Shown here: positions 10,492 to 58,127 of the stretch, in pieces
How the letters are laid out: each line of letters begins with the position of its first letter
Position numbering within the stretch: the first letter of the stretch is position 1
From: a virus
Virus record (IMG/VR): IMGVR_UViG_3300033144_006696
Span: 59,867-123,866 of that record
Length of the DNA: 64,000 nt
Strand: one strand, 5' to 3'
Notes under the pieces: model-generated
Told to the model about the DNA's origin: nothing
Databases searched by the model: none
Seen by the model: only the letters and a program-made list of their open reading frames with translations
Translations under genes and position numbers: made by a program

Positions 10492-11343
10492 TTAATAAAT
10501 ATCTTTATAATGGTCAATGATTTCATTGATATCAGATTCATAAAGTTTCAAGGCGATTTCATAAAGCTCCCCAAGCATTCCAAGACCATTTTCTACGAAA
10601 TCAACCATACTTTTTGATTTATATTTATGAGTTGCATCATACTTTGCTCTTCGTATTTGCAGATTCATATGATATTTTCTACTAAAATGATCATATAACA
10701 ACTGCCATCTTTTTTGGAAATCAGATCCTTTGAACCTGACAACTTTGTTCAACACTTGTCTTTGTGCTTCTAATCCAATTGATTTGCAAATTCCATCAAT
10801 AACTTCCTCTTTATATTCTAATTCTTTTTGAACTTTTTTATTAGTTTCTTCCAGAATTAATTTCTGTTTTTCTGAAATGACCAACTGCTCTAACGCTTCA
10901 ATATAATTAGTAGGAGTTATTTTTTTTGCAATCTTTTCCATTTCAATGAAATACTTTCTTGCTTCTTTTCCTTTCTGATTTCTTTCAACCATAGATAATT
11001 CTTTTGCCATATCAATTTTAATTGTATATTCTTTCCTTATAGAAGATCCTCTTACATTATTCTTACGTTTGATTTTTCTATCAAACGTAATAAAGTTTTG
11101 ATTTTCAAGAAAATCATAATCTTTTATTCTTTTTGTAATCCATGTTGTATATTCTTGTTTGCTTTCAAGAAATATCCATAATTCTCTTGCATCAACTGAA
11201 TTAACTTCTTCTTTTCCAATTGTTTGTTTTTCAATAATAATCAATTCTTTTGAATCTGTCATATTTACGATTTTTGGTTGCTTTGTTAATTGTTTCTGAT
11301 TTCGTTTTTTCTGTGTTTGTTTCATTGATCGTTTTTTTGCCAT
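10492..11343 (-). CDS. AntA/AntB-type phage antirepressor-like protein
   Basis: About 283 residues from the ATG that follows AGGAGAAATGAA. A basic leader (MAKKRSMKQTQKKRNQ) precedes an AntA/AntB domain ('VNSVDARELWIFLESKQEY', 'WITKRIKDYDF', roughly residues 40-140). Then comes the shared linker 'NYIEALEQLVISEKQK', also present in the ORF6N protein at 55031-55816, and a unique C-terminal helical region. AntA proteins relieve prophage repression by binding repressors. A possible three-way-junction leader lies just upstream. Confidence 0.75.
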   Translation of the reverse strand: MAKKRSMKQTQKKRNQKQLTKQPKIVNMTDSKELIIIEKQTIGKEEVNSVDARELWIFLESKQEYTTWITKRIKDYDFLENQNFITFDRKIKRKNNVRGSSIRKEYTIKIDMAKELSMVERNQKGKEARKYFIEMEKIAKKITPTNYIEALEQLVISEKQKLILEETNKKVQKELEYKEEVIDGICKSIGLEAQRQVLNKVVRFKGSDFQKRWQLLYDHFSRKYHMNLQIRRAKYDATHKYKSKSMVDFVENGLGMLGELYEIALKLYESDINEIIDHYKDIY

Positions 11344-11374
11344 TTCATTTCTCCTAAAATAAAAAAGCCTATTA

Positions 11375-11427
11375 AGAGTGGTGATGACTGGAATGTAGAA
11401 ACCAATAACCCTCGAAGGGTTCACTCT
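11375..11427 (-). promoter_or_regulatory. Three-way-junction leader upstream of AntA gene
   Basis: Read on the - strand, AGAGTG...CACTCT closes two hairpins, AACCCT-tcg-AGGGTT and ATTGG...CCAGT. The second stem contains a U-G wobble that pairs only in the - strand RNA. It is followed 30 bases on by the AntA ribosome binding site. The architecture resembles the four leaders in front of the initiator-like genes, although sequence is different. Confidence 0.45.
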
Positions 11428-11447
11428 CTTTCAATATTGAACTTCTA

Positions 11448-12202
11448 TTAATCAGTAATTAAAATTTTATATTTCACTAAAGAATTATAAACACGATTAT
11501 CTAAAACTTCTATATATTTATTTATCATGATTTTGATTTGTTCTTCTTTTGCTTTTTTATAAACTAAAAAAGTTTTTTCAGGATTACAAAAACATCTAAG
11601 ATATTTTTGTTTTCCATTTACAGCTATTTGTGCTATAAATTTATTTGATGATTTATCAAAACAAACCCCAATAGGATATTTACCTCTTGATTTATCACAT
11701 TTAACCAGTAATAAATTAATTGATTGAGGAACAAAGGAACAAAATTCAGGACAATATATTTTATTTTCTCTTTTAATAATATCTTTATCAAGTTCCACTC
11801 TTTCATCAAGAAGTTCATAGTAATTTTTATGAAACCATTCAGCAAAATTCTGAAAATTCAACCATTCTTTACACACGAAAACATCTTGATAAGTTTGTCT
11901 TCTGTTTATTGTATATGGTTCATAACATCTTCGTAGCATATTCTGCCATGTTTGATATTTAATGGTTTTTTGTTATTTATTTTTGTTTTATATTTACCAA
12001 TCCCAAAATAACCAATTCCATAAATACTTGGAAATAAGGGATCTTTTACGTTTCCTTTTTTAAAATGATTATAATCTGTCTTTATAATATACCCAGTTTT
12101 GAATTTAACTTTAATATCTCTTGCATTATTGTATTCAACGATCTTCATTAATCCATAATGACCTTTCTTAATTTCCCCAGTTCTATCAATAAATCTACCC
12201 AT
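11448..12202 (-). pseudogene. AP2-domain homing-type gene, frameshifted
   Basis: Two frames together match the intact AP2-type gene at 29185-29940. The first covers the N-terminus ('GEIKKGHYGLMKIVEYN'), the second continues from 'MLRRCYEPY' to '...YKILITD'. The break is a single-base shift after an A6 run near 11965; in the corrected frame the join reads 'IKYQTWQNMLRRCYEP'. The family (WxxMxxRCY, EWxNFxNFxxW, CSFVPxxIN) is found as free-standing HNH/AP2-like selfish genes in phages. It follows a hairpin at 12223-12288. Confidence 0.75.
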
Positions 12203-12222
12203 AACGTACTCCAAAAATAAAA

Positions 12223-12288
12223 ATGGCAACGTATTTTATCAGGTTGCGTATATGAAAATAAATCCATATCCAATAAAATAGTTGCCAT
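12223..12288 (-). terminator. Hairpin ATGGCAAC family, copy C
   Basis: Arms ATGGCAAC...GTTGCCAT extend inward through TATTTTAT/ATAAAATA with one bulge. On the - strand it is followed by TTTTTATTTT. A near-identical hairpin with 18-bp perfect arms ends the module at 57843-57929, and a shorter version precedes the AP2 gene at 29961-30025. Probably a terminator that closes the origin-like module. Confidence 0.6.
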
Positions 12289-12370
12289 GTATATTCACAG
12301 ATTGTCCCTTGACGCAACTCAAAGTTAAGATCAATATATCATAAGTTATATAAAGAATCAAGAATATTCA

Positions 12371-12753
12371 ATATAAGCATATACTCAAAACCGGAATACT
12401 CCTCTGATCTGCAATAAATGCTCTTAATAGACTTGATAAGCTTAATGTACATTTTTCTGAATCAATCACAATTCATCAAAGTTAAGATCAATATATCACA
12501 TCTTGATAAATTTGCAAATATAATCTTTGAAATTAAACTCAATTGATCAATTTTAGCTTATTTAACGATGATAAAAGTCAAATTAGATGCAATACTCTCA
12601 TTGTTTTGTAATCAAAGCGAAATGAGCAAAGATTGATCTTGATGTGCAATGAATAATCTTGAATCTGCAAAGATCAAGGATTTTTAATTCAACAAAGAAT
12701 CTTATTGCAATCAAAGCGAAGCTCCTTTCCCAGCAAACTTGCACAAGCAAGTT
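12371..12753 (-). other. Candidate origin region, module C
   Basis: A gene-free stretch of about 380 bases. On the - strand it starts with a hairpin (AACTTGC-acaa-GCAAGTT on +, 12736-12753), then the conserved block CTGGGAAAGGAGCTTCGC. AT-rich sequence with TTGCAAT and GATCAA repeats follows, ending in the conserved motif GGAGTATTCCGGTTTTGA (within 12371-12409). The same order occurs in modules A and B. Origin function is inferred from this architecture and from the adjacent initiator-like gene. Confidence 0.55.
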
Positions 12754-12847
12754 GTATAGAGTTGTAATCTTATGTTGTTGTGTATGATGTAATCATACTT
12801 AAATAATAACTTGTTATTGTTTATCAACATAAGAGTACAGCTCTTTC

Positions 12848-12904
12848 TATAGTTAGACATCTGTGTCGCACTATATTTGTCAGAGACACAGATGTCTAAC
12901 TATA
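12848..12904. repeat. Perfect 20-bp inverted repeat, module C
   Basis: Arms TATAGTTAGACATCTGTGTC / GACACAGATGTCTAACTATA are separated by 17 bases, immediately after the stop of the initiator-like gene. No T-run follows, so it is not a simple terminator. Modules A and B carry the same arrangement with unrelated sequence, as expected for binding sites of diverged cognate proteins. Confidence 0.75.
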
Positions 12905-12909
12905 TAAGT

Positions 12910-13573
12910 TTAAATATTTATTCTTAATTTCCTGAAACGACCATCAAAATATATTTCCTCAATTAATCCTTTGTTCATAAGCTTGATTCTATTTCGTTGA
13001 ATTGTTTTAGAAACACATGAAAGCAATTCAGCAGCTCTTGTATCAGATAATCCTGTAATACCTCCCTCAGAACCATTAGAAGCTTTATTTGGTGTTGTTG
13101 AATATGCTTTATACAACATAAGTAAAACTAATTCTATCGGACTTAATTTTTCTTCATCTTTTTTTATTCTGAATTAATTCTTCAAATATATTTCTTCTCA
13201 TGGTAAATTCTCCTGTGGAATTTTTCCAGTATATGCAAGATTTCAAAGCATAGGCTCCACATAATTTTAATTCTAACAAAATATCATGATATGGAATACC
13301 ATTATTTCTGATGAATTTTTTAAACATAATATATTGGTATTCAAAATCAGCAGATATTTTTGTAATTCCATATTTTAAAATTACAGAATAATTTATTGAT
13401 TCAGTTTCACGTTCAACAATAATATTGAAATCTTTGCAGACTTCCCTTAACTCTTGTAATGGATTTTTTGTTCTGAAGAAATTTGAATCCACAAATCTAA
13501 GCTCTTTGTGGTTTTTATTTTGGATTCTTTCGTAATAGAGATCTTCTTTGGAGGGAATTTTCTTGTTAAACAT
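12910..13573 (-). pseudogene. Winged-helix initiator-like gene C, frameshifted at A7
   Basis: The ATG at 13573 opens 'MFNKKIPSKEDLYYERIQN' and the frame stops just after an AAAAAAA run near 13164. The +1 frame continues 'SPIELVLLMLYKAYSTT' and ends with a winged-helix ('AAELLSCVSKTIQRNRIKL', 'MNKGLIEEIYF'). One A fewer gives a 220-residue protein, close in size to copies A (204) and B (189). The gene has the same promoters, folded leader and downstream inverted repeat as those copies. It may be inactive, use slippage on A7, or reflect a sequence error. Confidence 0.7.
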
Positions 13574-13608
13574 AATTTTACCTTTTGCCACAAGTAGCCA
13601 TAAATGAA

Positions 13609-13674
13609 TGTGGGAAAAGAGAATGGCAAATTCTCAGTTCAATACAAGGAGCAACCCTTATATCTATCCCCACA
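13609..13674 (-). promoter_or_regulatory. Three-way-junction leader, copy C
   Basis: On the - strand, TGTGGGGA and TTCCCACA close two hairpins: ATATAAGG/CCTTGTAT (one U-G pair) and GAGAAT/ATTCTC. The TSS predicted from the TTGCTT promoter lies about 10 bases upstream. The closing stem and the GATAGAT linker are conserved with copies A and B, while the inner stems differ in sequence but keep pairing. Confidence 0.7.
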
Positions 13675-13688
13675 ATTTTGGATGACTA

Positions 13689-13717
13689 AGTATAACAGAA
13701 GGTAAAATTTGAAGCAA
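13689..13717 (-). promoter_or_regulatory. Promoter TTGCTT-17-TATACT, module C
   Basis: On the - strand TTGCTT, 17 bases, then extended -10 TGTTATACT, followed by TAGTCAT and the folded leader. The same promoter precedes the leaders of modules A and B. Confidence 0.65.
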
Positions 13718-13740: not shown

Positions 13741-13769
13741 ATAATAGAAAATTAATACAAGAAAGTCAA
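13741..13769 (-). promoter_or_regulatory. Upstream promoter TTGACT-17-TATTAT, module C
   Basis: A second sigma70-type promoter on the - strand about 50 bases upstream of the TTGCTT promoter. The tandem arrangement is repeated in module A. The rest of 13675-13923 contains no gene. Confidence 0.6.
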
Positions 13770-15775: not shown

Positions 15776-15796
15776 GGTTCTTGTATTTTTTCAATT

Positions 15797-16058
15797 TTAC
15801 CATATTTTGTACCCAATTGCATGATTACTATTTATAGACATTTTATATTTACCTATACCAAGATATCCAGTTTTATAAATACTTGGAAATAAAGGATCTT
15901 TTACATTTCCAGTTTTAAAATGATCATATCTTGCTTTTACAACTGTTCCTGTTTTGAATTTAACTTTAATGTCTCTGCAACCATTATATTCAATGATCTT
16001 CATTACACCATAATTACCATTTTTAACCTCTCCAACTTTATTTTTTTAGTTTAGCCAT
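15797..16058 (-). pseudogene. AP2-type gene, truncated and frameshifted
   Basis: The ATG after AAAAGGAAT starts 'MAKLKK' and runs into a stop after an A7 tract. The next frame reads 'KVGEVKNGNYGVMKIIEYN' and continues as the AP2-type N-terminal domain up to 'AIGYKIW', then stops. The HNH-like middle and C-terminal parts seen in the intact copy are missing. Two lesions (one-base shift and deletion) mark an older relic. Confidence 0.75.
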
Positions 16059-25397: not shown

Positions 25398-26168
25398 TTA
25401 TTTGTATTTTTCTTTCAATCTATTACAAAAATAAATCTGACCTAAAGGAGTAATCATTACTCTCTTTGATAATCTGACACCAAATAATGTGTTATAAGTG
25501 GTTTCTATTACATTGAAAAAGCCTTTTTCTAACATATTTTGGTAGGGTAAATTGTTATCCATGATATATTTCTGAGTTCTCATCCATTTATAAAGACGAT
25601 TCCTGCCAATACCTAAATGTTGATCTTTAACGAGTTTGGCAAATGTTTCAAAATCAATTGCATCATTAGAATTAGAAACTTGTTCTGCAAATTCTACAAG
25701 TGGTTTATCATTCTTGATTTTCTCCTCTAATGTTATTGCTTTCTTTTCTGCTTTATAATAAGCTTCTAATAATTCTAATTTAGTTCTTGGTTGAATTGAA
25801 TATGATCCTGTTTTCCTAATTGTAGGTAAAACTTCTGTTTTTATCCATTTTTTGAAAGCTTTTGCTTTGGGCATTTTACTACCAAAAATTGCCTCATATA
25901 ATCCTGATTCATTTATAACTGTTTGATTTCTATACTGATTTGAGCTGACATTCCGTAACGGCGTGTTAGCTTTTTCATCTTTATCAAGTCTTTTAGTCAT
26001 TTTATTTGTGCCAGAATATTCTAAAATATCTGCAATCTCTTTGGCAATAAACCAAGCTTCTCCGTCTTTTTCAAGAACAGTAAGTTTTCCAAATTCATTA
26101 TTTTTGAAAATTGTTAATTCTGAATTTTTATTTACTTTAATTTTTTCAATTCGTTGTAATTTTTTCAT
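25398..26168 (-). CDS. Antirepressor: BRO-N plus KilAC-type C-terminal domain
   Basis: 256 residues. The BRO-N domain (residues 16-125) shows 'GEAWFIAKEIADILEYS', 'INESGLYEAIFGSKMPKAK' and 'WIKTEVLPTIRKTGSY'. The C-terminal domain ('AIDFETFAKLVKD', 'GRNRLYKWMRTQKYI') is the KilAC/ANT DNA-binding type. A near-identical C-terminal domain occurs in the protein at 32142-32937. It likely counteracts a repressor. It has its own promoter (26199-26227), divergent from module A. Confidence 0.85.
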   Translation of the reverse strand: MKKLQRIEKIKVNKNSELTIFKNNEFGKLTVLEKDGEAWFIAKEIADILEYSGTNKMTKRLDKDEKANTPLRNVSSNQYRNQTVINESGLYEAIFGSKMPKAKAFKKWIKTEVLPTIRKTGSYSIQPRTKLELLEAYYKAEKKAITLEEKIKNDKPLVEFAEQVSNSNDAIDFETFAKLVKDQHLGIGRNRLYKWMRTQKYIMDNNLPYQNMLEKGFFNVIETTYNTLFGVRLSKRVMITPLGQIYFCNRLKEKYK

Positions 26169-26263: not shown

Positions 26264-26292
26264 TTGACTTTTTCACTTGATTATCATAATAT
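26264..26292 (+). promoter_or_regulatory. Upstream promoter TTGACT-17-TAATAT, module A
   Basis: The -35 and the following 17-base spacer are almost identical to those at 56056-56084 in module B, although the regions downstream differ. Confidence 0.65.
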
Positions 26293-26315
26293 GATTTCTC
26301 AATAAAATAAATAAC

Positions 26316-26344
26316 TTGCTTCATAATAATATCTCTGTTACACT
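26316..26344 (+). promoter_or_regulatory. Promoter TTGCTT-17-TACACT, module A
   Basis: An extended -10 (TGTTACACT) follows. The predicted start is near 26351, so the RNA would begin just before the folded leader. Confidence 0.6.
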
Positions 26345-26358
26345 TCAGTCATTCAAAT

Positions 26359-26423
26359 TGTGGGAATAGATTCAGCCTTATAACCTGAATTGAAAATCGG
26401 CTTTGTTAACCGACCTTCCCACA
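26359..26423 (+). promoter_or_regulatory. Three-way-junction leader, copy A
   Basis: TGTGGGAA (26359-26366) pairs with TTCCCACA (26416-26423). Inside are ATTCAG/CTGAAT and TCGG/CCGA hairpins. Compared with copies B and C the outer stem and the AATAGAT linker are conserved, while both inner stems change on both sides and remain paired. Confidence 0.75.
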
Positions 26424-26458
26424 TCTTTTTAATGACACACCGTAACAAAGGTGAAAGT

Positions 26459-27073
26459 ATGAATCAGAAATTTAGTGATGAAATTTATGAAAAACTCCTC
26501 GAAGATCCTCCTTTAGCAAAATTATACCTTTCTGGCTATCCTGAACAAAAATCCAAAGTAAAGAAAATATTCCCAAAAGATTTTATTTGGTGGAAGAATA
26601 AAAAATTCAATAATATCAAAAAGAGATATAAACCTATTGAAGCCATAATTACTGAATTTAACAGTAAACCTAATAGATTATCTCACACTAAAGCTCTTAT
26701 AGAATGTGAAGGAATGGATTTAAAGCATTATGTCTTTATAAAAAATAAGAATAAGAGTAAAAGAGATAAAAGTAATCAATACAAACATCCAGCATTGTTA
26801 AAATTAAACTGTAAGGTGATGATTGCTGAAAAACTGGGCATTTCTATTTATTCAATAAAAGAATATATTGCAATGCTTGTCCGGTGCGGCATATTAAGAG
26901 TCACACATCTTGGAAATGGAAAAATATATCTTTCATCAGGTTATTGGCAATTTTATCCATGCGAAGACAAAACAACAAGATATAAAGTTCAACCATACAT
27001 GAATGAAAAAATCGGAAAAAACCTTCTTGATCCAGACAAAGCTTATCTTAGAAAACCAAAATTAAAATTTTAA
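26459..27073 (+). CDS. Winged-helix initiator-like protein A
   Basis: 204 residues from the ATG after AAAGGTGAAAGT. The N-terminal 25 residues ('IYEKLLEDPPLAKLYLSGY') are shared with protein B and the 113-residue relative. A basic middle follows, then a winged helix with recognition helix 'LGISIYSIKEYIAMLVRCG' and wing 'THLGNGKIYLSSGYW'. It stands opposite to the surrounding genes, with its own promoters, a folded leader, a terminator and a cognate-looking inverted-repeat array. A replication initiator (Rep) or autoregulatory DNA-binding protein is inferred; no named family is recognised. Confidence 0.7.
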   Translation: MNQKFSDEIYEKLLEDPPLAKLYLSGYPEQKSKVKKIFPKDFIWWKNKKFNNIKKRYKPIEAIITEFNSKPNRLSHTKALIECEGMDLKHYVFIKNKNKSKRDKSNQYKHPALLKLNCKVMIAEKLGISIYSIKEYIAMLVRCGILRVTHLGNGKIYLSSGYWQFYPCEDKTTRYKVQPYMNEKIGKNLLDPDKAYLRKPKLKF

Positions 27074-27075
27074 TT

Positions 27076-27116
27076 AAAGGGAATATTCAAACAAACTATC
27101 TTTGAATATTCCCTTT
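27076..27116 (+). terminator. Terminator of initiator-like gene A
   Basis: Perfect 16-bp arms AAAGGGAATATTCAAA / TTTGAATATTCCCTTT with a 9-base loop, followed by TTTTA, 3 bases after the stop codon. Confidence 0.85.
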
Positions 27117-27148
27117 TTTATAAAATTGAAATGTATTACGATGTAATT

Positions 27149-27175
27149 TCATGGGTGTGTCGGACACACCCATGA
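27149..27175. repeat. Perfect palindrome, module A binding-site candidate
   Basis: TCATGGGTGTGTC, one base, GACACACCCATGA. The half-site TCATGGGTGTG reappears twice in the next inverted repeat (27187-27248). It has no T-run and is not the gene terminator, so an iteron/operator role is likely. Confidence 0.75.
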
Positions 27176-27186
27176 TTATTCCCTAA

Positions 27187-27248
27187 AACACACCCATGAT
27201 TTTCTAAGAAGTGCGTCAATGCTGGATGTTGAAAATCATGGGTGTGTT
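27187..27248. repeat. 18-bp inverted repeat, module A
   Basis: AACACACCCATGATTTTC and GAAAATCATGGGTGTGTT are exact reverse complements, 26 bases apart. Together with the palindrome at 27149 they give four copies of the same half-site within 100 bp. Confidence 0.75.
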
Positions 27249-27472
27249 GAAGCATTTATACATTTCTTTCATCTCTTTAATGATTTCAATAAGTTACAAG
27301 GATTTTCAAAACTACTTTTTGAAGTCTCCCTATTAAAACCTACATACTTACTGTATATATATAGAATACTTCATATTTTATTTTAATTTGTTAATACTCC
27401 TTTGGAGCTAAGACGTTACACATCTTCTTTATTATCAAATTAAAAAAAAGATAAAGTATTACGCGTTGTTCC

Positions 27473-27700
27473 AACGCTGGGGAAAGAGGCTTCGCCTTGG
27501 TTGCAAGAGCTTAATCCTATTGCATATCATTACTCATTGCAAATTCATGAATATCATTGCACAACAAGATCAATTCTTGTTCATTGCAGAGCATTTCAGA
27601 AATATCCTATATATTGCTATTCAAGATTATCATTGCAATTCTAAGAACATCTTATTGCACATCAGGGGAGTATTCCGGTTTTGAACATATGCTTATATTA
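27473..27700 (+). other. Candidate origin region, module A
   Basis: No gene is seen here. It opens with hairpin GCGTTG-ttc-CAACGC (27473-27487), followed by TGGGGAAAGAGGCTTCGCC. Then seven ATTGC(A/T) repeats occur at 27519, 27536, 27556, 27583, 27613, 27632 and 27654, with CAAGATCAATTCTTG between them. It ends with GGAGTATTCCGGTTTTGA and ATATGCTTATATT. About 65 bp around CAAGATCAATTCTTG is nearly identical in module B. The stretch 27249-27472 before it is AT-rich without clear features. Confidence 0.55.
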
Positions 27701-27890
27701 ATACTAAACCACGTCCAATTTTATATTTGTGTTTTGGTCTACTGTATTCTAAATCAGATATTTTACGATCTATTTCTCTATTTTTCTTTGCATCTTCACA
27801 ATTACACTCAAAGTAATTTGTCATTTCATCCCAATGCTCTTTCTTTTCTTGACCACAAAAAAAGCATGTACTGCTAAAATCGTTTTCCAT
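27693..27890 (-). CDS. Small zinc-binding protein
   Basis: 65 residues: 'CFFCGQEKKEHWDE' and 'FECNCEDAKK' provide four cysteines. Such short Cys4 proteins are common in phages. The 3' end overlaps the conserved terminal motif of module A by a few bases. Function unknown. Confidence 0.6.
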   Translation of the reverse strand: MENDFSSTCFFCGQEKKEHWDEMTNYFECNCEDAKKNREIDRKISDLEYSRPKHKYKIGRGLVLI

Positions 27891-28402: not shown

Positions 28403-29173
28403 TCATATAAGCACTCTTTGTTTTGGTTTTTTCTCATTTTTTATTGCTTCAATAATTCTATTCTTTGCAATTTTGAAATATTTAGATTCTTTTTCAATAC
28501 CTATGCCGTTTCTGTTTAAGTTTTTAGCTGCTACTATAGTTGTTCCACTGCCCATTGTAAAATCCAAAACTGTTTCGTTTTCATTTGTATATGTTTTAAT
28601 TAAGTATTCCATTAGTGTTACTGGCTTTTGGGTTGGGTGTACTGTCCTCCCTAATTCTCTGGGGTAGTTTAAATATGTTATGGGATATTTATATTTATAA
28701 GTTTTTTCTGTCCACTTTTTATCAGGATTATTTTTAACAGGAATAGCTTCGCTTGTTTTTACACTGCCTGCATTAATAGGTTTATCTCTCAGTGTCATTT
28801 GTGGGTAATAATTTGGTAATGTTTTTTCTATACTAAAAACACTGATTGTTTCAATAGTTTTTAATGGCATCCTTTTAACTTGAACAAAATTACTGTCAAA
28901 TTTTTTATTCCAATACCAATCATACTTATAATTCTTAATATTACTCATCCGCAAAGCGGAACTGAAAGGTTCACTTCCAAACAATACAATTGCACCATTA
29001 GATTTAATTAGTTTATTAAGTCTTAACCACATCTTATCAAATGGTATAATTGAATCCCATTTGCAGGCAACAATTCCAAATGGTGGATCTGTGATAATAG
29101 CGTCTACTTTAATATTATCACAGATCAATTTATCCATTACATCTAAACAATCACCACGATAAAGTTTTATCAT
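28403..29173 (-). CDS. DNA N6-adenine/N4-cytosine methyltransferase
   Basis: 256 residues. Motif IV 'ITDPPFG' (residues 27-33) lies near the N-terminus, a target-recognition segment follows, and motif I 'VLDFTMGSGTT' is C-terminal after 'VHPTQKPVTLMEYLI'. This order is the beta class of N6A/N4C methyltransferases (DNA_methylase N4/N6 family). It has no restriction enzyme partner nearby, so it probably protects phage DNA or regulates transcription. An AP2-type homing gene lies directly upstream. Confidence 0.9.
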   Translation of the reverse strand: MIKLYRGDCLDVMDKLICDNIKVDAIITDPPFGIVACKWDSIIPFDKMWLRLNKLIKSNGAIVLFGSEPFSSALRMSNIKNYKYDWYWNKKFDSNFVQVKRMPLKTIETISVFSIEKTLPNYYPQMTLRDKPINAGSVKTSEAIPVKNNPDKKWTEKTYKYKYPITYLNYPRELGRTVHPTQKPVTLMEYLIKTYTNENETVLDFTMGSGTTIVAAKNLNRNGIGIEKESKYFKIAKNRIIEAIKNEKKPKQRVLI

Positions 29174-29184
29174 AATTATCTACT

Positions 29185-29940
29185 TTAATCTATAATTTCA
29201 ACTTCATATTTCATCAAAGAATCATAAACTCTGACATTCAAAACTTTTCTATATTTGTTTGCCATTATTTTAATCTGTTTTTCTTTTTCAATTTTATAAG
29301 CATTGAAAGCTTTTTTCGGAGTAGAAAATAATCCAAGGTGTTTTTGTTTTCCATTAATAGCCACTTTTGCTATATATTTATTTGATGGTTTATGAAAGTA
29401 TGCCCCAATAGGATATTTACCTCTTGAATTATCCCCCTTAATTAATAAACAATTAATTGAGTGTGGTACAAAAGAACAATTTTTTGAATTATAATGTTTA
29501 TTTCCTCTTTTTATTATATCTTTATTCAAATCTACTTTTTCATCAAGGAGTTCATAATGATTTTTATTATACCATTCTGCAAAGTTTTGAAAATTCAGCC
29601 ATTCATCACATATCGTTGCATTTTGATAAGTTAAATTTTTATTTATTATATAAGGATCATAACATCTTTGAATCATATTATACCATGTTTCATATTCAAT
29701 AGTCATTTTACAATTTATTTTTGCTTTATATTTACCAATTCCAAGATAACCAGTCTCATAAACAATGGGAAATAATGGATCTTTTACTTCACCATTTTTA
29801 AAATTATTGTATTGAGTTTTTATAATACTTCCAGTTTTAAATTGAACTTTGATATCCATACAACCGTTATATTTAATGATTTCCATTAAACCACAACTAC
29901 CTTCCCTAATTTCACCTATACGATCAATAAATGTTACCAT
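29185..29940 (-). CDS. AP2-domain HNH-like homing-type protein, intact copy
   Basis: About 251 residues from 'MVTFIDRIGEI'; the longer frame upstream crosses a hairpin. The N-terminal domain ('CGLMEIIKYN', 'DIKVQFKTG') occurs in phage AP2-type proteins. The middle 'WYNMIQRCYDPY', 'WLNFQNFAEWY' and 'CSFVPHSIN' form an HNH-like part, and the C-terminal 'PIGAYFHKPSNKY' region is AP2-like. Five decayed relatives are spread across the window. These are free-standing selfish endonuclease-type genes in phages; activity is not proven. Confidence 0.8.
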   Translation of the reverse strand: MVTFIDRIGEIREGSCGLMEIIKYNGCMDIKVQFKTGSIIKTQYNNFKNGEVKDPLFPIVYETGYLGIGKYKAKINCKMTIEYETWYNMIQRCYDPYIINKNLTYQNATICDEWLNFQNFAEWYNKNHYELLDEKVDLNKDIIKRGNKHYNSKNCSFVPHSINCLLIKGDNSRGKYPIGAYFHKPSNKYIAKVAINGKQKHLGLFSTPKKAFNAYKIEKEKQIKIMANKYRKVLNVRVYDSLMKYEVEIID

Positions 29941-29960
29941 TTTAATTCCCCAAAATAAAA

Positions 29961-30025
29961 ATGGCAGTAAAGTAAATGGGGTGATATATATCAATAAATT
30001 GATATCCCATAAACAGAACTGCCAT
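29961..30025 (-). terminator. Hairpin ATGGCAGT family upstream of AP2 gene
   Basis: Arms ATGGCAGT/ACTGCCAT with an inner ATGGG...CCCAT and GATAT repeats. On the - strand it is followed by TTTTTATTTTGGGG and then the AP2 start. Related hairpins occur at 12223-12288 and 57843-57929. Probably a terminator of the upstream transcript or a mobile-gene boundary. Confidence 0.55.
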
Positions 30026-31674: not shown

Positions 31675-32145
31675 TTATTTCCAGTTAAATTTCCATTCAG
31701 TGAAGTTTTTGCAAGAAACAATATTACCAATCTCTGAAAATAATGCTATTGTATCCAGATCTGGGTATAATCCTGAATAAACAATTCTTTTTGGTTTTAT
31801 TCCCAAAAGCATCTTTGCACAGATAATACAGGGAGAATGTGTAATATAAATATCACAACCTTTTATATTGACACCTGTGATTGCTGCTTGAATAATGAGG
31901 TTTTGTTCTGCATGATCAGCAAAACATTTCTCATGCTGCTTTCCTGATGGAATATTCTGTTCATCTCTTAGACAACCACCCCTATCTTCACAATGCATTA
32001 TATTGGGTGGCGCACCATTGAAACCAGTGGCAAGACATCGTTTATCTCTCACAGCAACAGCCCCTACATTACGACGTAGACAGGTAGATCTGGTAGCAAC
32101 TAATTGTGTTTGTTTTATCCAATACTCATCCCAAGACTCTCTCAT
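31675..32145 (-). CDS. dCMP deaminase
   Basis: 156 residues. Zinc ligands and catalytic residues are visible as 'HAEQN' (H78, E80) and 'PCIIC' (C106, C109). Residues around 'GFNGAPPNIMHCEDRGGC' match phage dCMP deaminases with a structural second zinc site. The product dUMP feeds ThyX. Its start overlaps the antirepressor stop by 4 bases. A degraded partial copy lies at 32965-33129. Confidence 0.95.
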   Translation of the reverse strand: MRESWDEYWIKQTQLVATRSTCLRRNVGAVAVRDKRCLATGFNGAPPNIMHCEDRGGCLRDEQNIPSGKQHEKCFADHAEQNLIIQAAITGVNIKGCDIYITHSPCIICAKMLLGIKPKRIVYSGLYPDLDTIALFSEIGNIVSCKNFTEWKFNWK

Positions 32146-32937
32146 TTGAATTCCGCCTTTAGTTTATTGCAAAACCATACTTGACCTAAAGGAGTTATCA
32201 TGATTCTTTTTGAAAGACGAATACCAAAAGAAGTATGATATGTCGTTTCTACAACAATAAGGAATTGTCTTTCTATTATGTGCTGATAGGGTAAATTGTT
32301 ATCCATGATATATTTTTGAGTACGCATCCATTTATAAAGACGATTCCTACCAATAGGGATAAATTGGTCTTTAACCAATTTTGCAAATGTCTCGAAATCA
32401 ATTGCATCATTACTCTTTGTAACTTGTTCTGCAAATTCAACTAATGGACGATCTTCTTTTATCTTTTCTTCTAATATTTCATTTTTTTCAATTTCATCAG
32501 CAAGTTGTCTGAGATGTTCAGAATAAGTTTTTTTAGTAAATGAATATGATCCAGTTTTTCTGATTGTAGGCAAAACTTCATCAGTTACCCAATCTTGAAA
32601 ATCTACAGCACTTGGAAGATGTGAACGCATAATCAATCTATATAAATCTTTTTCATTAATAATCTGTATTCCCCTTGGAGGAACTTCAAATGGAAATTTC
32701 AGAGACTCCGCAATGTCTTGTTTGAGTATTTTCAAATACTTACAATGCATTCTGATAGCTTTTCCAGTGTCTTTGTATCCAAGTTTATCTGCTACTTCTC
32801 TTCCAATAAACCAAACATCATTGTCATCAGAAATGACTGTTAAACTACCAAATAGATCATGCATAAATTCTTTAACTTCTGCGGATTTTGTAAATTTTGC
32901 TGGTGATGTAATTCTCTGTAATTTTTTTATTTTTCAT
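32142..32937 (-). pseudogene. Antirepressor (BRO-N plus KilAC), N-terminal frameshift
   Basis: The long frame from 32864 encodes 240 residues: BRO-N ('VWFIGREVADKLGYKDTG', 'LPTIRKTGSY') and a KilAC-type domain almost identical to that at 25398-26168. The ATG at 32937 reads 'MKN', but an A7 run shifts the frame. With six A it reads 'MKNKKLQRITSPAKF', matching the paralogue's 'MKKLQRI' start. The protein may still be made from the internal ATG at 32864. Confidence 0.7.
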
Positions 32938-33996: not shown

Positions 33997-34064
33997 GCGA
34001 ATTTTTATAAAAAAAGCTAATATAATATAAAAGTGTATTAGTTTTAAAAAGTACATAAGTCATT

Positions 34065-34349
34065 TTACTTTTTTAGTGTCAAAACTGCTTCAGATTTTAA
34101 TGTGATTGGTGCTATTGGTTCAGGTAATGAATCAATAGAAATACTTATTGGATTATTATTTTTCAATTTTAATGGGTATTTAATATTGCCTTTTTTCAAT
34201 TGAAATATTGCAGGAAAAAGTACTTCTGCATAATTCAAATGTAAATTGTGTGTTCTGAAACTTATAGAATCCATGCTTCTTGTAATTGTGTAATCTTGAA
34301 AATACATATTTCTCTCAACATTGATAGTAAATATATTGACATCTTTCAT
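34065..34349 (-). CDS. Hypothetical beta-rich protein
   Basis: 94 residues, mostly beta strands, ending 'PITLKSEAVLTLKK'. It follows the endonuclease VII gene by one base. No family recognised. Confidence 0.55.
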   Translation of the reverse strand: MKDVNIFTINVERNMYFQDYTITRSMDSISFRTHNLHLNYAEVLFPAIFQLKKGNIKYPLKLKNNNPISISIDSLPEPIAPITLKSEAVLTLKK

Positions 34350-34350
34350 T

Positions 34351-34899
34351 TTACTTTCCTTTTAAAAATGAAGGTTTTAATTTAAATTCTTCATAGAATT
34401 TTTTGAGAGTTTTTGAAAGTTTTTTACCATTTTTTTCATCTTGTGCATTATAAATAAAACAAGAAGGAATTTTTCTATTTGAATAATTTACTTGAAAAAG
34501 CTTCATGAGTTTTTTAACACTGGTCTTTTTTAATCGTTTGGGTTTAGGAGCTTCAGAAGGATGAAGATATTGAAGATGAGTTAAAGGTGGATTTTCAATA
34601 AAATCTGCCAGATTTCTAAGAAATTCAGGAAGTGAAATATTAAATTTATGCAGTCCTACCCTGATATATGAATTGGCTATCTTACCTTCTATTGAATTAG
34701 AAGCTCTATGAATTACACCACGAATTAATCCAATTTCATTAGGTTTTCCAAGATTTTTTGCATTATTAGCATGCTGATGATCTACCACCATATCTTCTAC
34801 AGGAAATTTCATTTTGAGAATAGGGCATATTCCATTTTGTTTTTTATGAAAAAATGCCCTAATCTTTTTTAAATCTTTTTGTTTAAGTTGTTTTGACAT
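34351..34899 (-). CDS. Recombination endonuclease VII-like Holliday junction resolvase
   Basis: 182 residues. The core 'GICPILKMKFPVEDMVVDHQ' and 'GLIRGVIHRASNSIEG' match T4 gp49 (endonuclease VII) with the DHxH/N catalytic region. The usual CxxC zinc pairs of gp49 are largely absent, so it is a zinc-less variant. It would resolve branched DNA before packaging. It lies next to the FEN/UvsX cluster. Confidence 0.8.
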   Translation of the reverse strand: MSKQLKQKDLKKIRAFFHKKQNGICPILKMKFPVEDMVVDHQHANNAKNLGKPNEIGLIRGVIHRASNSIEGKIANSYIRVGLHKFNISLPEFLRNLADFIENPPLTHLQYLHPSEAPKPKRLKKTSVKKLMKLFQVNYSNRKIPSCFIYNAQDEKNGKKLSKTLKKFYEEFKLKPSFLKGK

Positions 34900-34901
34900 A
34901 T

Positions 34902-35136
34902 TTATTCTTTTGCATTAAAAATAACGTCTAACGCTTGTTTAATCTTCTGCCCACTGTATGACGTAGGTACCATATTAAAAGCTTCACAGAGGAGAAATAA
35001 AGCTTCTTTTTTTTGGAGATAATGAATCAATCATGCATCTCTTATTTCTACATTTAGGACACATAGATAAATCTTGTTTATTAAATCTGATAAAACCACA
35101 TATAGTACATCGACAATGCTTTTTTTTATCTGTCAT
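34902..35136 (-). pseudogene. Frameshifted zinc-ribbon gene (A8 run)
   Basis: Starts 'MTDKKKHCRCTICGFIRFN' with a second knuckle 'CPKCRNKRC', then meets an A8 run near 35008. In the next frame 'EALFLLCEAFNMVPTSYSG' continues to 'VIFNAKE' and a stop 2 bases before the endonuclease VII start. Seven A would restore about 78 residues. Confidence 0.6.
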
Positions 35137-35320
35137 AATAATCCTCAATAAGTTCTTCACCAGTTTCAATAATAAAACCAATATCTCCACATGTACATTG
35201 TATTTCTTTAAGAAGTACATGCTCAGGTCTGATTGCCATCCATCTATATAAACATTTTAAGCAAATAACTTCAGACAGTTTGTGAGACATATTGGTTTCA
35301 ATAGGTACTATATCTGCCAT
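35126..35320 (-). CDS. Zinc-ribbon protein
   Basis: 64 residues: 'CLKCLYRWMAIRPEHVLL', then 'CTCGDIGFIIETGEEL'. This Cys4 ribbon type is common in phage genomes. It overlaps the frameshifted zinc gene by 11 bases and abuts the 145-residue gene. Confidence 0.65.
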   Translation of the reverse strand: MADIVPIETNMSHKLSEVICLKCLYRWMAIRPEHVLLKEIQCTCGDIGFIIETGEELIEDYYDR

Positions 35321-35757
35321 TATTTCAATCCTTTATTTTTCTTTTTAAAAACCCAATTGAATTTCTTTTTTGACCATTTAGCAACTGCTTTAACAGAACT
35401 ATCTGAACTTATCTCCCAGACAAAATCACCATCATCACCAATTTCATCAAGAGCTTGATCCATAATGTCAAATATTCCAGCACTATATGTTGAAAATTCT
35501 CTTCCCATTTCATTGCCAATTGCATACTTTTTAATACTGTATCGCAACTTCTCTATTGATGGTGATGGTAATGGGCCAATCCAACCAAAAATAACTTTCT
35601 TGTAAGGTTGATCAGATCCAGGCCGACTCCATTTATTATCAGAAGACCAGACCAATAATTCCTTCTTAGGATAGGGAGCATTGCCAATATCAGAATAAAC
35701 CACATAAGTACCTATTTTAGTTGGATATCCTGTTCTGATATTAATTTTCATATTCAT
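35320..35757 (-). CDS. Hypothetical protein
   Basis: 145 residues with a tryptophan-rich N-terminal domain ('KKELLVWSSDNKWSRPGSDQ', 'VIFGWIGPLP') similar in style to small phage DUF551-like domains. The C-terminus is basic. No firm family. Confidence 0.55.
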   Translation of the reverse strand: MNMKINIRTGYPTKIGTYVVYSDIGNAPYPKKELLVWSSDNKWSRPGSDQPYKKVIFGWIGPLPSPSIEKLRYSIKKYAIGNEMGREFSTYSAGIFDIMDQALDEIGDDGDFVWEISSDSSVKAVAKWSKKKFNWVFKKKNKGLK

Positions 35758-35926
35758 TCTTATTCTTCAATGCTCTATCGCTATAATCTCGATATACTTT
35801 ATTTCCACATCTAAAACAATAGCAAGGAGATGTTTTTGAAGATCTTGCTGTATCATAGCTACATTTTGTACATGGTTTATACCATCTATCATAATCTTTT
35901 AGCTTATATGTCTTTTTATTATTCAT
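35741..35926 (-). CDS. Zinc-ribbon protein
   Basis: 61 residues: 'CTKCSYDTARSSKTSPCYC' and 'CFRCGNK'. It follows the exonuclease gene by 4 bases and overlaps the next by 17. Probably nucleic-acid binding. Confidence 0.6.
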   Translation of the reverse strand: MNNKKTYKLKDYDRWYKPCTKCSYDTARSSKTSPCYCFRCGNKVYRDYSDRALKNKNEYEN

Positions 35927-35930
35927 TATT

Positions 35931-37940
35931 TTACCTCAACTTTAATGATTTACACCAAAAATCAATATCTGAAAGAATTGCTTTAAAATTATACTTTTCT
36001 GCAATCCTGATTAATCCTTTCTTTTTCAATCTATCAGGGCGAATAGAATATTTTGGTGTGCCTCTGAATGGTAATATTACCAATGCTTTATTACGATTTA
36101 TTACGTCCTTACCGCGTCGACTTTCAATTGCTTTATAAGCTTGTGTTGTTGGTTTCATTTTTCCAGTAATGTAATTGAGCGCACCTTTTTCGGCCACGTG
36201 TCTTTGTTTTTTTGTTGGATCTGATTGTGGGATTGGGACACCTTTGACATTATCAGAAACGCAATTACTACTCCATGCAACAGTACCATTTCTTCTGATC
36301 AATATTGTATGATGTGGTTCTGTAGTAATGTCATATACAAAGTCATTAAAAGGTATTTTTGTTATTGTTTTTTTCATGATATTTGCATTTTTTGATTTAT
36401 TAATTTTTAAATGATAATTTGTAGAACTTACTCCAGATTTTCCCCTAATATTCCATTCTCTTCCATCTCTTTTTATAATTTTTGTAGCATGACCAAGTTT
36501 AATTGCAATTTCTTGAACATCATCAATTAATTTTTTACTACTGGAAAAATAAGAAATTCTTTCAGTTATTCCTTCTTTTCCAAAAACATTATACTCTTCT
36601 ATTGAAACACAGCCATCACCAGATATTAATGAATTAAATAAAATTTGCAATTGTTCCCGTGATAAATTAAGAAATTCTCTTGGTATATATTTTTCTTTTG
36701 CTTTTCCTAATTGATTTAAATATTCAGCCAATTGAACATTATCAGTTCTCCATCCTTTTTTACCTCTACACCAATTCCAAGGGGTTGCAAATAATATTGG
36801 TGTAAAGAAATCTAATTTTCGTTTTTTACATGCTGATATTCCTATTGTCCCTATATTACCATTTCTATTTTTAGAAACATGACCATCAGCAAGATATATG
36901 CCCAAAAAAGATAACCATATATCCATATCTATTTCAACGGGGTCAAATTTTCTTGTTGATATAAATTTTCCTCTTATTTTACAATTAGTTTCCCATTGGA
37001 TAGTGATTTCAGGAAGTAAAAATTTATCTTTTTTTATTCCATTCCAATCTGATGTGAGTGGTATTGTAAAATTTTTATATTTAACAATTTCTTGAATCTC
37101 TTTAAAGGTAATTATACTTTTTGATTTTTTTGTTGGATATGCTTGTGTAGTACTGCCAAAGAATTTATGATTTGGAGTTACAACAAAATCTATTAATCTT
37201 CCTTTTATCTTATACATTTCTCCTTTATAAATATATTTAATTCGTTTTGTTATTTTTTCATAAGAAGCATTTCTTGAAAGAGGGTCCATACTATATACTT
37301 TGTCTGATTTTTTAATACTTGGAAATTGAATCCATCCTCTATCAGTTAAAATTTCTGTTTTTTTATCAAAGCATCCGCCAATTGCCTTAATCCTTTTCCA
37401 CATCTTTGGTTCAATGTTGTATTTATTTTCAAAGTCAGTTATGGAAAAGAATGCATCAGTTTTTGCATTTAAAATGCAGATATTGTTGGTTATAATTTGA
37501 TATAGATCATGGTCAGTTGTACATATTACTATTTGATTATCTGAATATGATTTGCAAATTCTACCAATAATGTCGTCTGATTCAAAACCATCTTCACCAA
37601 ACATATTCATACACCCAAGAGTAGGTAATACATAATTAATTATTTCATCAAATTGAGGGTATGCAAGAGCATCAAGACGTTTTTGTTCTTCTGTCTTATT
37701 CACATAGCTTCTATTCTCTTTATACTGAGCGTATATTTGCTTCCTGAGTGATGTTTTGCTATCAAGACCCCATACAATTACATTTGCTTTTGATTTCTTT
37801 ATCAGAGCGTTTAATTTAAACAAAAATCCATAAATAATGAAAGTCTTTTCATCAGCTTTTGTTAATCTTCCTTTTCCAATACTGTATTTTAATTGATGCA
37901 ATAATGAAAGAGTATCAATTAATAAAATTCGTTTAAACAT
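35931..37940 (-). CDS. 5'-3' exonuclease/flap endonuclease with LAGLIDADG intein
   Basis: 669 residues. The N-extein has the PIN-like FEN core: D9 in 'ILLIDTLSL', 'DDIIGRIC' and 'CTTDHDLYQII' metal ligands. The intein (residues 190-559) interrupts the H3TH metal/K+ loop between 'KAIGG' and 'CVSDNVKGVP'. After splicing the protein is about 299 residues, similar to T4 RNase H or PolA 5' nuclease. It would remove RNA primers and flaps. The last domain is basic. Confidence 0.9.
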   Translation of the reverse strand: MFKRILLIDTLSLLHQLKYSIGKGRLTKADEKTFIIYGFLFKLNALIKKSKANVIVWGLDSKTSLRKQIYAQYKENRSYVNKTEEQKRLDALAYPQFDEIINYVLPTLGCMNMFGEDGFESDDIIGRICKSYSDNQIVICTTDHDLYQIITNNICILNAKTDAFFSITDFENKYNIEPKMWKRIKAIGGCFDKKTEILTDRGWIQFPSIKKSDKVYSMDPLSRNASYEKITKRIKYIYKGEMYKIKGRLIDFVVTPNHKFFGSTTQAYPTKKSKSIITFKEIQEIVKYKNFTIPLTSDWNGIKKDKFLLPEITIQWETNCKIRGKFISTRKFDPVEIDMDIWLSFLGIYLADGHVSKNRNGNIGTIGISACKKRKLDFFTPILFATPWNWCRGKKGWRTDNVQLAEYLNQLGKAKEKYIPREFLNLSREQLQILFNSLISGDGCVSIEEYNVFGKEGITERISYFSSSKKLIDDVQEIAIKLGHATKIIKRDGREWNIRGKSGVSSTNYHLKINKSKNANIMKKTITKIPFNDFVYDITTEPHHTILIRRNGTVAWSSNCVSDNVKGVPIPQSDPTKKQRHVAEKGALNYITGKMKPTTQAYKAIESRRGKDVINRNKALVILPFRGTPKYSIRPDRLKKKGLIRIAEKYNFKAILSDIDFWCKSLKLR
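36264..37373 (-). mobile_element. Intein with LAGLIDADG endonuclease in FEN
   Basis: 370 residues. Block A 'CFDKKTEILTDRGW', block B 'VVTPNHKFFG', DOD motifs 'LGIYLADGHV' and 'LISGDGCVS' (two LAGLIDADG helices), block F 'FVYDITTEPHHTIL', block G 'VAWSSN' followed by Cys. The penultimate residue is Ser instead of His. The insertion point is the most conserved DNA-binding loop of the host enzyme, as usual for inteins. Confidence 0.9.
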
Positions 37941-41897: not shown

Positions 41898-42067
41898 ACC
41901 ATATAACCTTCAAGTTCTTCTTTCTCTACAAACCAAGGCTCAATTTCCACTACTAAATCATCATAGTCATTAATTACTGATTTTGGTATCCAAACATCTC
42001 TCTCATCAAAATAAAATAAAACCGCATCATCTGTTTCATGACTAACACCATCATGGCAAATTTCCAT
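41894..42067 (-). CDS. Small acidic protein
   Basis: 57 residues ('MEICHDGVSHETDDAVLFYF', 'VVEIEPWFVEKEELEGYMV'). Its start overlaps the clamp loader stop (TAATG) and its stop overlaps the mediator start (ATGA), so it is a coupled member of the replication operon. Function unknown. Confidence 0.6.
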   Translation of the reverse strand: MEICHDGVSHETDDAVLFYFDERDVWIPKSVINDYDDLVVEIEPWFVEKEELEGYMV

Positions 42068-56055: not shown

Positions 56056-56084
56056 TTGACTTTTTCACTTGATTATCATAAGAT
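56056..56084 (+). promoter_or_regulatory. Promoter TTGACT-17-TAAGAT, module B/D
   Basis: Nearly identical in -35 and spacer to the promoter at 26264-26292. Start expected near 56091, just before the folded leader D. Confidence 0.65.
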
Positions 56085-56112
56085 GATTTCTCAATAAATT
56101 ACTTCATGATTT

Positions 56113-56164
56113 TGATAGCAAAGGGTCCATGGCCCTGGGAGGATTGGTCTCCTCCCTGCTATCA
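56113..56164 (+). promoter_or_regulatory. Three-way-junction leader, copy D
   Basis: TGATAGCA (56113-56120) pairs with TGCTATCA (56157-56164), enclosing AGGG/CCCT and GGGAGGA/TCCTCCC hairpins with almost no unpaired bases. All three stems differ in sequence from copies A-C yet keep the same architecture. Much richer in GC than its surroundings. Confidence 0.75.
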
Positions 56165-56200
56165 TAATTTTCAATGACCACCATTAACCAAGGTGATATT

Positions 56201-56515
56201 ATGTTTAATCTGGATATTTATGCAGAACTTCTTGAGAAAAATCCCTCTTTAGCAAAAACATACTTTGAAGACCATTCACAACCACAAGATTTACCTACTC
56301 ATAAAGTACCTTCATTACTAAATCCTGATATTATTGAGACATTGGCTAAAAAATTTGGATGTTCAGTTGAAGAATTAACTGAAAATTTTGATTTTTTAGT
56401 TTGTGTTGAAGAATTAGAAAAATATGATATTGATGGAGTAATCCATTATGCAGTAAATGAAGATTCTGATTTTCATAATTATGTACGTGATACAGGTGAA
56501 TATCCTAAGTTATAG
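56201..56515 (+). CDS. Initiator-related small protein without winged helix
   Basis: 104 residues from the ATG after AAGGTGATATT. The first 25 residues ('LDIYAELLEKNPSLAKTYF') match proteins A and B, but the rest is acidic ('VEELTENFDFLVCVEELEKY', 'HNYVRDTGEYPKL') and lacks the winged helix. It may modulate initiator B by occupying a shared interaction surface. It is followed by the promoter and leader of gene B. Confidence 0.65.
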   Translation: MFNLDIYAELLEKNPSLAKTYFEDHSQPQDLPTHKVPSLLNPDIIETLAKKFGCSVEELTENFDFLVCVEELEKYDIDGVIHYAVNEDSDFHNYVRDTGEYPKL

Positions 56516-56531: not shown

Positions 56532-56561
56532 TTGCTTCTTTCATAATACTTCTGTTATGCT
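56532..56561 (+). promoter_or_regulatory. Promoter TTGCTT-18-TATGCT, module B
   Basis: The -10 TATGCT is preceded by TGT (extended -10 type) and followed by TAGTCATTCAAA as in module A. Confidence 0.55.
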
Positions 56562-56574
56562 TAGTCATTCAAAT

Positions 56575-56640
56575 TGTGGGAATAGATACGAAAGTCATGA
56601 GTCGTATTGAAAATTGATCCCGTCAATCAACTTTCCCACA
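56575..56640 (+). promoter_or_regulatory. Three-way-junction leader, copy B
   Basis: TGTGGGAA/TTCCCACA enclose ATACGA/TCGTAT and TTGAT/ATCAA hairpins. Linkers AATAG and TGAAAA are the same as in copy A; both inner stems are compensated changes. Confidence 0.75.
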
Positions 56641-56673
56641 TTCTTTTATGACGGCTTTTGGCGGGAAAATATT

Positions 56674-57243
56674 ATGAATAACCAAGAAATATATCAAAAA
56701 TTCCTCGAATTAGATCCTTCCTTTGCTAAGAAATTCAAAACAGAAAACATCACAAAATCCAAAAAGAAAATCCCCTGGCCTTTAAAACACAAATGGTATC
56801 ATCATAAAAAATTCGATAGCGTCAAGAAGCGTTTCAAGTATCTTGAGACAATTCTTATTGAGATTGGTAATTCTCTATATAGATTAACCCAAAATAAATG
56901 TAAAAAACTAATATCTAATGATAAACTTACGAAAGATCATTCTTTTATTCTTAATAGAAAAAGAAAAACTCCTGCGTTTATGCGCTTAAATTGCAAATTC
57001 TTAATTGCAAAGAAAGTTGGTTGTTCTGTCCGTACTGTTGAATACATACTTAGAGCTTTAGTTCGTATAGATGCATTAAAAGTTTCAAATTTTGGAAAAG
57101 GAAAATCATATTATCATTGTGGTTATTGGGGAAAGTACAAAAACAAAGAAGATGTAATTGATTTCAAAATCCATATGTACATGAATCAAAAAGTTGCTAA
57201 AGAAATGGCTGATCCAGATAAATTCTATAAAAGAAAAATCTAA
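56674..57243 (+). CDS. Winged-helix initiator-like protein B
   Basis: 189 residues. The N-terminus 'EIYQKFLELDPSFAKKF', basic middle and winged helix 'VGCSVRTVEYILRALVRIDA', wing 'SNFGKGKSYYHCGYW' and C-terminus 'MYMNQKVAKEMADPDKFYKR' align with protein A along the whole length. The recognition helix differs, in line with the different repeat array downstream (57256-57359). Replication initiator or autoregulator is inferred. Confidence 0.7.
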   Translation: MNNQEIYQKFLELDPSFAKKFKTENITKSKKKIPWPLKHKWYHHKKFDSVKKRFKYLETILIEIGNSLYRLTQNKCKKLISNDKLTKDHSFILNRKRKTPAFMRLNCKFLIAKKVGCSVRTVEYILRALVRIDALKVSNFGKGKSYYHCGYWGKYKNKEDVIDFKIHMYMNQKVAKEMADPDKFYKRKI

Positions 57244-57255
57244 AATATAGCTCTA

Positions 57256-57285
57256 ATTTAAGATACGCCCGGGCGTATCTTAAAT
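57256..57285. repeat. 30-bp perfect palindrome, module B
   Basis: ATTTAAGATACGCCC/GGGCGTATCTTAAAT without spacer, 12 bases after the gene. Half-site AAGATACGCCC is repeated in the next inverted repeat. It could also act as terminator stem, but no T-run follows. Confidence 0.75.
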
Positions 57286-57292
57286 ATTCCAC

Positions 57293-57359
57293 TGGGGCGT
57301 ATCTTAAAATTCGTAAGTGATTGATTTTATTAATTTCAAGAATTTTAAGATACGCCCCA
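57293..57359. repeat. 20-bp inverted repeat, module B
   Basis: TGGGGCGTATCTTAAAATTC and GAATTTTAAGATACGCCCCA, 27 bases apart, are exact reverse complements. Together with the palindrome they give four half-sites in about 100 bp, as in module A. Confidence 0.75.
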
Positions 57360-57548: not shown

Positions 57549-57779
57549 GCGTTGCAAAGCAACGCTGGGGAGAGGGGCTTCGCTTTGGTTACAAGAGCAT
57601 ATCGTTGTTCATTACACAGCAAGATTATTCATTGCACAACAAGATCAATTCTTGCTCATTGCAGAGCATTTTAGAAATATCCTATATATTGCTATTGCAT
57701 ATTAATCATTGCATATCTAAGAGCATTTATTGTAGATCAGAGGAGTATTCCGGTTTTGAGCATATACTTATATTGATTC
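57549..57779 (+). other. Candidate origin region, module B
   Basis: Hairpin GCGTTGC-aaa-GCAACGC, then TGGGGAGAGGGGCTTCGC, ATTGCA repeats with CAAGATCAATTCTTG, and the terminal GGAGTATTCCGGTTTTGA motif. About 65 bp in the middle is nearly identical to module A. The stretch 57360-57548 is gene-free. Function as an origin is inferred. Confidence 0.55.
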
Positions 57780-57842: not shown

Positions 57843-57929
57843 ATGGCAACTTATTTTATCGGATGCACGAAGAAATTATTACCTAAAAGATTTCTCTTTG
57901 CATATTGACCTGATAAAATAAGTTGCCAT
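57843..57929 (+). terminator. Terminator hairpin closing module B
   Basis: Perfect 18-bp arms ATGGCAACTTATTTTATC / GATAAAATAAGTTGCCAT with an inner AGAAAT...ATTTCT hairpin, followed by TTTTTTT on +. The remainder up to 58127 is AT-rich with no gene that I can support. Confidence 0.75.
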
Positions 57930-58127
57930 TTTTTTAAGAGAATCTTTTGATTCTCCTCAAATAGGAATAGCTCTGATTAATTTTCAGAGCTATTTAAGAT
58001 TATTGACTATCTTGTTGTGAAAAAGTTCTTATAATGAGCTATATTACTTTCAAATTCACTTAGTAAAAATAATATAAAACTCTTAAAGAAATACAAATAC
58101 ACACAATAGAATTATCTTTTACATTAT

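Follow-up and report, generated by a model that had tools for sequence, protein, structure and literature searches.

Module organization in the phage genome

The window analysed here, a 64 kb stretch of viral DNA, covers positions 59867-123866 of a 123,866-bp virus record and is thus its final 64 kb. The ends of the record overlap by 114 bp, indicating that it is probably complete or terminally redundant, and a 24-bp minisatellite is found at the record ends (window positions 63809-63982 and the start of the record). Family matches identified structural genes encoding a portal, a large terminase and an Ig-domain tail protein, as well as replication genes encoding a DNA polymerase A with a UDG domain, a clamp, a clamp loader, a RecA-like protein, a ligase, a DnaB-like helicase and a primase. 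As judged from these family matches, the gene content resembles that of T5-like siphophages. Its polymerase had no near relative in the phage collection, every match being below 60% identity. Intein-domain matches were seen in an exonuclease, the clamp loader, DNA polymerase A and a helicase (window positions 35931-37940, 42067-44169 and 44921-48685, and L011:8739-11132).

Three modules are present in the window, here called A (minus strand, 13769-12360), B (plus strand, 26264-27705) and C (plus strand, 56056-57784). The common order and conserved chassis claimed for them in an earlier note were confirmed, as each module carries a promoter-like site, a leader predicted to fold into a three-way junction, a gene, perfect inverted repeats, a hairpin, ATTGCA repeats and an 18-nt end motif. 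Judged from their sequence, the modules are a real and unusual set of cassettes, most simply read as a fixed chassis with an exchangeable unit of protein plus sites. Four antirepressor-type genes (AntA, Bro-N/KilAC and ORF6N/ANT) lie at 10492-11424, 25398-26168, 32142-32864 and 55031-55816, one near each module, and a paralogous gene family occupies 11435-12178, 15794-16033, 29172-29916 and 52533-53265, with HNH endonuclease matches for 29185-29994.

Searches for relatives of the modules returned no match of module DNA in phages or plasmids, no relatives of proteins A, B and C by tblastn in phages or of protein C in plasmids, and no relatives of proteins B and C by pattern search in IMG/VR and GTDB genomes.

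Promoter-like sites and folded RNA leaders

The promoter-like site opening each module follows the consensus TTGACT-17-TAnnnT, with the same spacing in all three: TTGACT-17-TATTAT in A (13741..13769, minus strand), TTGACT-17-TAATAT in B (26264..26292, plus strand) and TTGACT-17-TAAGAT in C (56056..56084, plus strand). Promoter-like sites were no more numerous in the regions of modules A, B and C than in shuffled sequences, and the calls made here rest on common position and spacing, not on abundance.

Downstream, folded leaders are predicted at 13571..13705 in A (minus strand; core of leader model R1 at 13597-13687), 26330..26453 in B (plus strand; three-way-junction core at 26347-26436) and 56541..56676 in C (plus strand; core at 56563-56652). 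Compared to dinucleotide shuffles, the fold z-scores were -3.0 for B, -3.5 for C and -5.6 for A (-5.64 before rounding). Base-pairing in the outer stem takes in the Shine-Dalgarno region of all three leaders and, in C, the start codon as well, while both arms of the stem differ in sequence between modules. When the three core sequences were aligned, 94.8% of cells were paired and six pairs carried compensated changes, as compared to 32-48% of cells paired in shifted controls; with as few as three sequences, this supports the predicted fold but falls short of proof. Module C has two extras between promoter and main leader, namely an additional structured leader with a stem and two hairpins (56105..56170, plus strand) and a small ORF (56174..56515, plus strand) with the N-terminal motif IYxxLLExxPxxAKxY common to proteins B and C. 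Among 128 upstream regions of the phage, that of module A ranked first in predicted stability, and those of the small and main ORFs of module C ranked fourth and fifth.

A known riboswitch or ribozyme was rejected as an identity for the leader, since no match at gathering score was obtained from Rfam in the window or the remaining record, and relaxing the search to E-values up to 5 gave only chance-level matches in B and C. A pattern search of viral contigs yielded five matches, none of which folded like the leader, and in the kin records (identified via portal protein and DnaB) the R1 model found nothing except an identical copy of the head region of this phage. A structured-looking intergenic stretch was also noted in the unrelated viral contigs L001 (10480-10190, minus strand) and L002, the former giving no Rfam match. 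Within the phage itself, an R1-type three-way-junction leader (E 0.001) and a promoter-like site were observed directly 5' of an HNH endonuclease gene (L012:14049-16035; record positions 34049-36035). This gene sits between the scaffold and major head protein genes, and its Shine-Dalgarno sequence lies outside the stem.

Cassette proteins

Module B encodes a protein of 204 aa (26459..27073, plus strand) with a weak wHTH signal, and module C a protein of 189 aa (56674..57243, plus strand) that is 36% identical to it. Divergence between the two proteins is relatively high in the candidate recognition helix (4 of 15 residues identical), the N- and C-terminal segments being better conserved. The winged-helix assignment made from the sequence earlier was weakly supported: a FaeA match (E 0.0013) fell below the Pfam cut-off, and structure prediction, which had been proposed as a check and was run on protein B, placed a helix-helix-strand-strand arrangement at 117-160 with very low confidence, in an AlphaFold model whose mean pLDDT of 34 made it unusable for fold search. 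Weak matches among the cassette proteins were of FaeA and HTH_36 type, and protein C in addition matched HTH and O-like replication families weakly (E 0.015-0.05). No Pfam family scored above its curated cut-off for any cassette protein, and hence no recognised Rep family was found; nor did any cassette protein scanned match the RepA_N domain.

The gene of module A is split between frames. Its first ORF (13154..13573, minus strand; 139 aa, no family) ends at 13154, just past an A7 run, and an HTH-like coding segment (12910..13170, minus strand) goes on in the +1 frame to 12910, a split that may reflect an assembly error, slippage or a broken gene. Protein A had no detectable relation to B or C and, as far as its sequence can tell, is an unrelated protein carried in the same chassis. 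The suggestion that the modules are paralogous cassettes thus holds for B and C but not for A.

A constant chassis with swapped cargo, even to an unrelated protein in A, would also be expected of mobile or competition cassettes, that is, selfish elements or immunity/exclusion units that diverge in specificity under phage competition and spread by recombination in the chassis. In line with this, the kin record G011 has approximately 650 bp between its exonuclease and ligase genes compared to 8 kb, including module B, in the present phage, indicating that the surroundings of module B are variable, and the leader upstream of the HNH endonuclease gene is related to those of the modules. However, no nuclease, transposase or recombinase domain was found in the cassette proteins, and neither a second phage with a different cassette set nor kin showing exchange was present in the collections searched. 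We consider this explanation unlikely.

Inverted repeat arrays

Perfect repeat copies lie directly downstream of the gene in all modules and are mostly inverted rather than direct. In B, four exact copies of TCATGGGTGTG in the orientation + - - + lie at 27149, 27165, 27189 and 27236 (array 27149..27246, plus strand), and in C, four exact copies of TTTAAGATACGCCC in the same orientation lie at 57257, 57271, 57295 and 57344 (array 57257..57357, plus strand). Module A has a single inverted pair of 23-nt arms at 12885..12907 (TAGTTAGACATCTGTGTC plus flank) and 12845..12867 (both minus strand), so that the repeat array previously ascribed to each module is found in B and C but not in A. The order in which the repeat sequences had been assigned was also incorrect, as TCATGGGTGTG belongs to B, AAGATACGCCC to C and AGACATCTGTGTC to A. 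That the repeats differ between modules, forming diverged protein/repeat pairs, was on the other hand borne out, the B and C arrays being unrelated in sequence.

Despite their unrelated sequences, the B and C arrays are nearly identical in geometry, both being arranged + - - +, with spacings of 87 bp between the outer copies (1 and 4) and 24 bp between the inner ones (2 and 3) (11-mer positions 0, 16, 40 and 87 in B; 0, 17, 41 and 87 in C). Agreement of both spacings has a probability of about 5e-4 under a crude random-placement model; since B and C share ancestry, this figure would gauge retention of the spacing and not its independent origin. Clustering of at least three inverted 11-mer copies in 150 bp or less was seen in B and C only, across the phage and 111 kb of kin records. 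Each exact repeat unit is confined to its own module across the 124 kb, and allowing one mismatch added one further site each for B and C. With no other exact copies in the genome, the target of each protein is likely to be local.

In B, a terminator-like hairpin (27076..27120, plus strand) with a perfect 16-bp stem and then a T run separates the gene from the array; its loop of 9 is above the limit of 8 set in the terminator scan, which therefore missed it. This hairpin favours the view that the array acts as DNA rather than as mRNA.

A small DNA-binding-like protein adjoining an array of presumed sites is also what a ParB- or TubR-like protein with its centromere would look like, and the modules could in principle serve partition, packaging or other DNA handling. 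Yet no ParA, TubZ or integrase was found among the proteins scanned, a set covering some but not all of the small ORFs, and three different partition sites would be odd on one lytic-looking phage. We therefore regard a role of this kind as very improbable.

The conserved 3' region

Beyond the repeats, each module has a hairpin followed by a conserved block: ACTTGC..GCAAGT with CTGGG..GCTTCGC in A (12700..12752, minus strand), and GCGTTG..CAACGC with CTGGGG..GCTTCGC in both B (27463..27512, plus strand) and C (57549..57596, plus strand). The ATTGCA repeat regions lie at 12410..12705 in A (minus strand), 27519..27658 in B (plus strand) and 57601..57730 in C (plus strand), and in a genome-wide ranking of ATTGC cluster density B and C took the top two places, with A tied for third. 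The end motif GGAGTATTCCGGTTTTGA is found at 12385..12402 in A (minus strand; conserved block 12360-12426), 27667..27684 in B (plus strand; conserved block 27652-27705) and 57742..57759 in C (plus strand; conserved block 57718-57784). These are its three exact sites in the window, which contains no others even when three mismatches are allowed (0.02 expected), and the 15-nt core of the motif occurs three times in the entire record. Overall, B and C share 82% DNA identity in their 3' regions, compared to 36% identity between their proteins.

Outside this phage, the end motif gave no match in genome contigs and three matches in viral contigs, which we read as unrelated coding sequence. The hairpin pattern had no match in viral contigs, and nothing was found with the 3' region DNA in eight kin records, most of which are short fragments.

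Past the end motif, terminator-like hairpins of the form TGGCAAC..GTTGCCA are present in A (12219..12290, minus strand) and C (57846..57933, plus strand) only. Together with a promoter-like site, TAGACA-17-TATAGT, that spans the repeat arms of A, and with protein matches of the FaeA and HTH_36 types typical of regulators, they could point to local transcription-control cassettes, in which the array-bound protein would control either its own operon or a non-coding transcript made from the region of the hairpin and ATTGCA repeats, with no role in replication. Against this, the arrays lie downstream of the gene instead of overlapping its promoter, B and C have no conserved promoter in the interval from array to hairpin, and promoter-like sites are at least as frequent in shuffled sequences as in the module regions. 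Transcription control thus seems a rather unlikely function for the modules.

Candidate initiator-origin cassettes

The constant part of the modules is kept even with an unrelated protein, protein and repeats differ jointly, and the sole apparent target of each protein is its own array, which argues for a DNA function that is local and acts in cis, with specificity residing in an exchangeable unit. We tentatively propose, with less than even confidence, that each module is a cis-acting cassette of a DNA-binding protein and its sites, most likely an initiator and a replication origin. Replisome genes were found but no initiator family was matched among the phage proteins scanned, and the set may therefore lack an initiator. 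That the modules are three compatible origins, as the earlier note had suggested, is plausible by analogy.

According to this proposal, transcription from a sigma70-type promoter would yield an mRNA with its ribosome-binding site concealed by the folded leader, which would keep protein levels low. The protein would bind only the repeats just 3' of its own gene, and the bound protein would then act on the conserved part, comprising a weak duplex, the hairpin, the ATTGCA repeats and the end motif, which may be recognised by common phage or host machinery. Binding at the array would start replication, the hairpin and ATTGCA repeats having presumed roles in the process, and protein and repeats would change jointly, forming an exchangeable specificity unit on a constant chassis. 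Sequence comparison directly supports the chassis, the predicted leader fold with its Shine-Dalgarno pairing, the array geometry, kept despite the changed sequence, and the uniqueness of the sites. It is possible, though doubtful, that the three modules are orthogonal initiator-origin cassettes on a common chassis, with the leader limiting initiator translation and specificity being a plug-in unit that possibly keeps the origins from inhibiting one another or competing phages or satellites from interfering.

Several observations speak against an origin function. GC skew, which had been suggested as a check, showed no reversal at any module when calculated at third positions (coding strand of minus-strand genes), the values on the two sides being 0.29/0.12 for A, 0.12/0.15 for B and 0.15/0.26 for C, with small blocks outside A and C; this is weak evidence either way. 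As a sign of an AT-rich unwinding element next to the repeats, the weakest duplex between array and hairpin gave a marginal signal, close to the 5% threshold of -1.096 in B (-1.08) and C (about -1.10) and weaker in A (-1.12). In addition, no replication family reached its curated cut-off, A is frame-split with two repeat copies, and there is no requirement for a lytic phage to have multiple origins that differ in specificity.

If the modules are origins, three separable specificities on one chassis would constitute a natural experiment on how an initiator and its origin repeats change together, and would offer a way to ask how the constant part recruits the replisome. Even if they are regulatory, constant geometry with wholly changed sequence would be a clear case of a protein and its DNA sites changing in step.

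Comparison with known systems

In IncFII and ColE2-type plasmid replicons, a structured leader controls translation of the initiator and the origin lies just 3' of the initiator gene. The layout of leader and downstream sites in the modules is alike, but there is no sequence relation and no plasmid homologue was found.

A close precedent for the proposed function is offered by the PLE satellites of Vibrio, in which RepA and ori covary as a modular replicon, with the C-terminal domain of RepA conserved (PMC8263062). The modules resemble this system in that initiator specificity and origin repeats covary while another part remains constant, as predicted here from sequence, and semi-palindromic repeats are a further likeness, as replication on phage machinery would be (PMC8263062, PMC7145576). 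However, PLE satellites have a single replicon each and a RepA_N protein, whereas the phage genome has three cassettes, no RepA_N match and a putative origin role. Several origins in one phage genome are found in T4, which has at least five, one of them (oriE) with iterons (PMC3016281); promoter, downstream unwinding element and, in oriE, repeats are features that may have counterparts in the candidate origins described here. The T4 origins lack a common sequence motif, in contrast to the modules, which have a chassis in common and differ in the specificity part.

Finally, the leaders of T4 homing-endonuclease genes also sequester the ribosome-binding site in RNA structure (PMC2988022), and a similar leader precedes the HNH gene of the present phage. 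T4 overcomes the block through a late promoter located within the structure, whereas here the promoter-like site is upstream and the whole structure would be transcribed.
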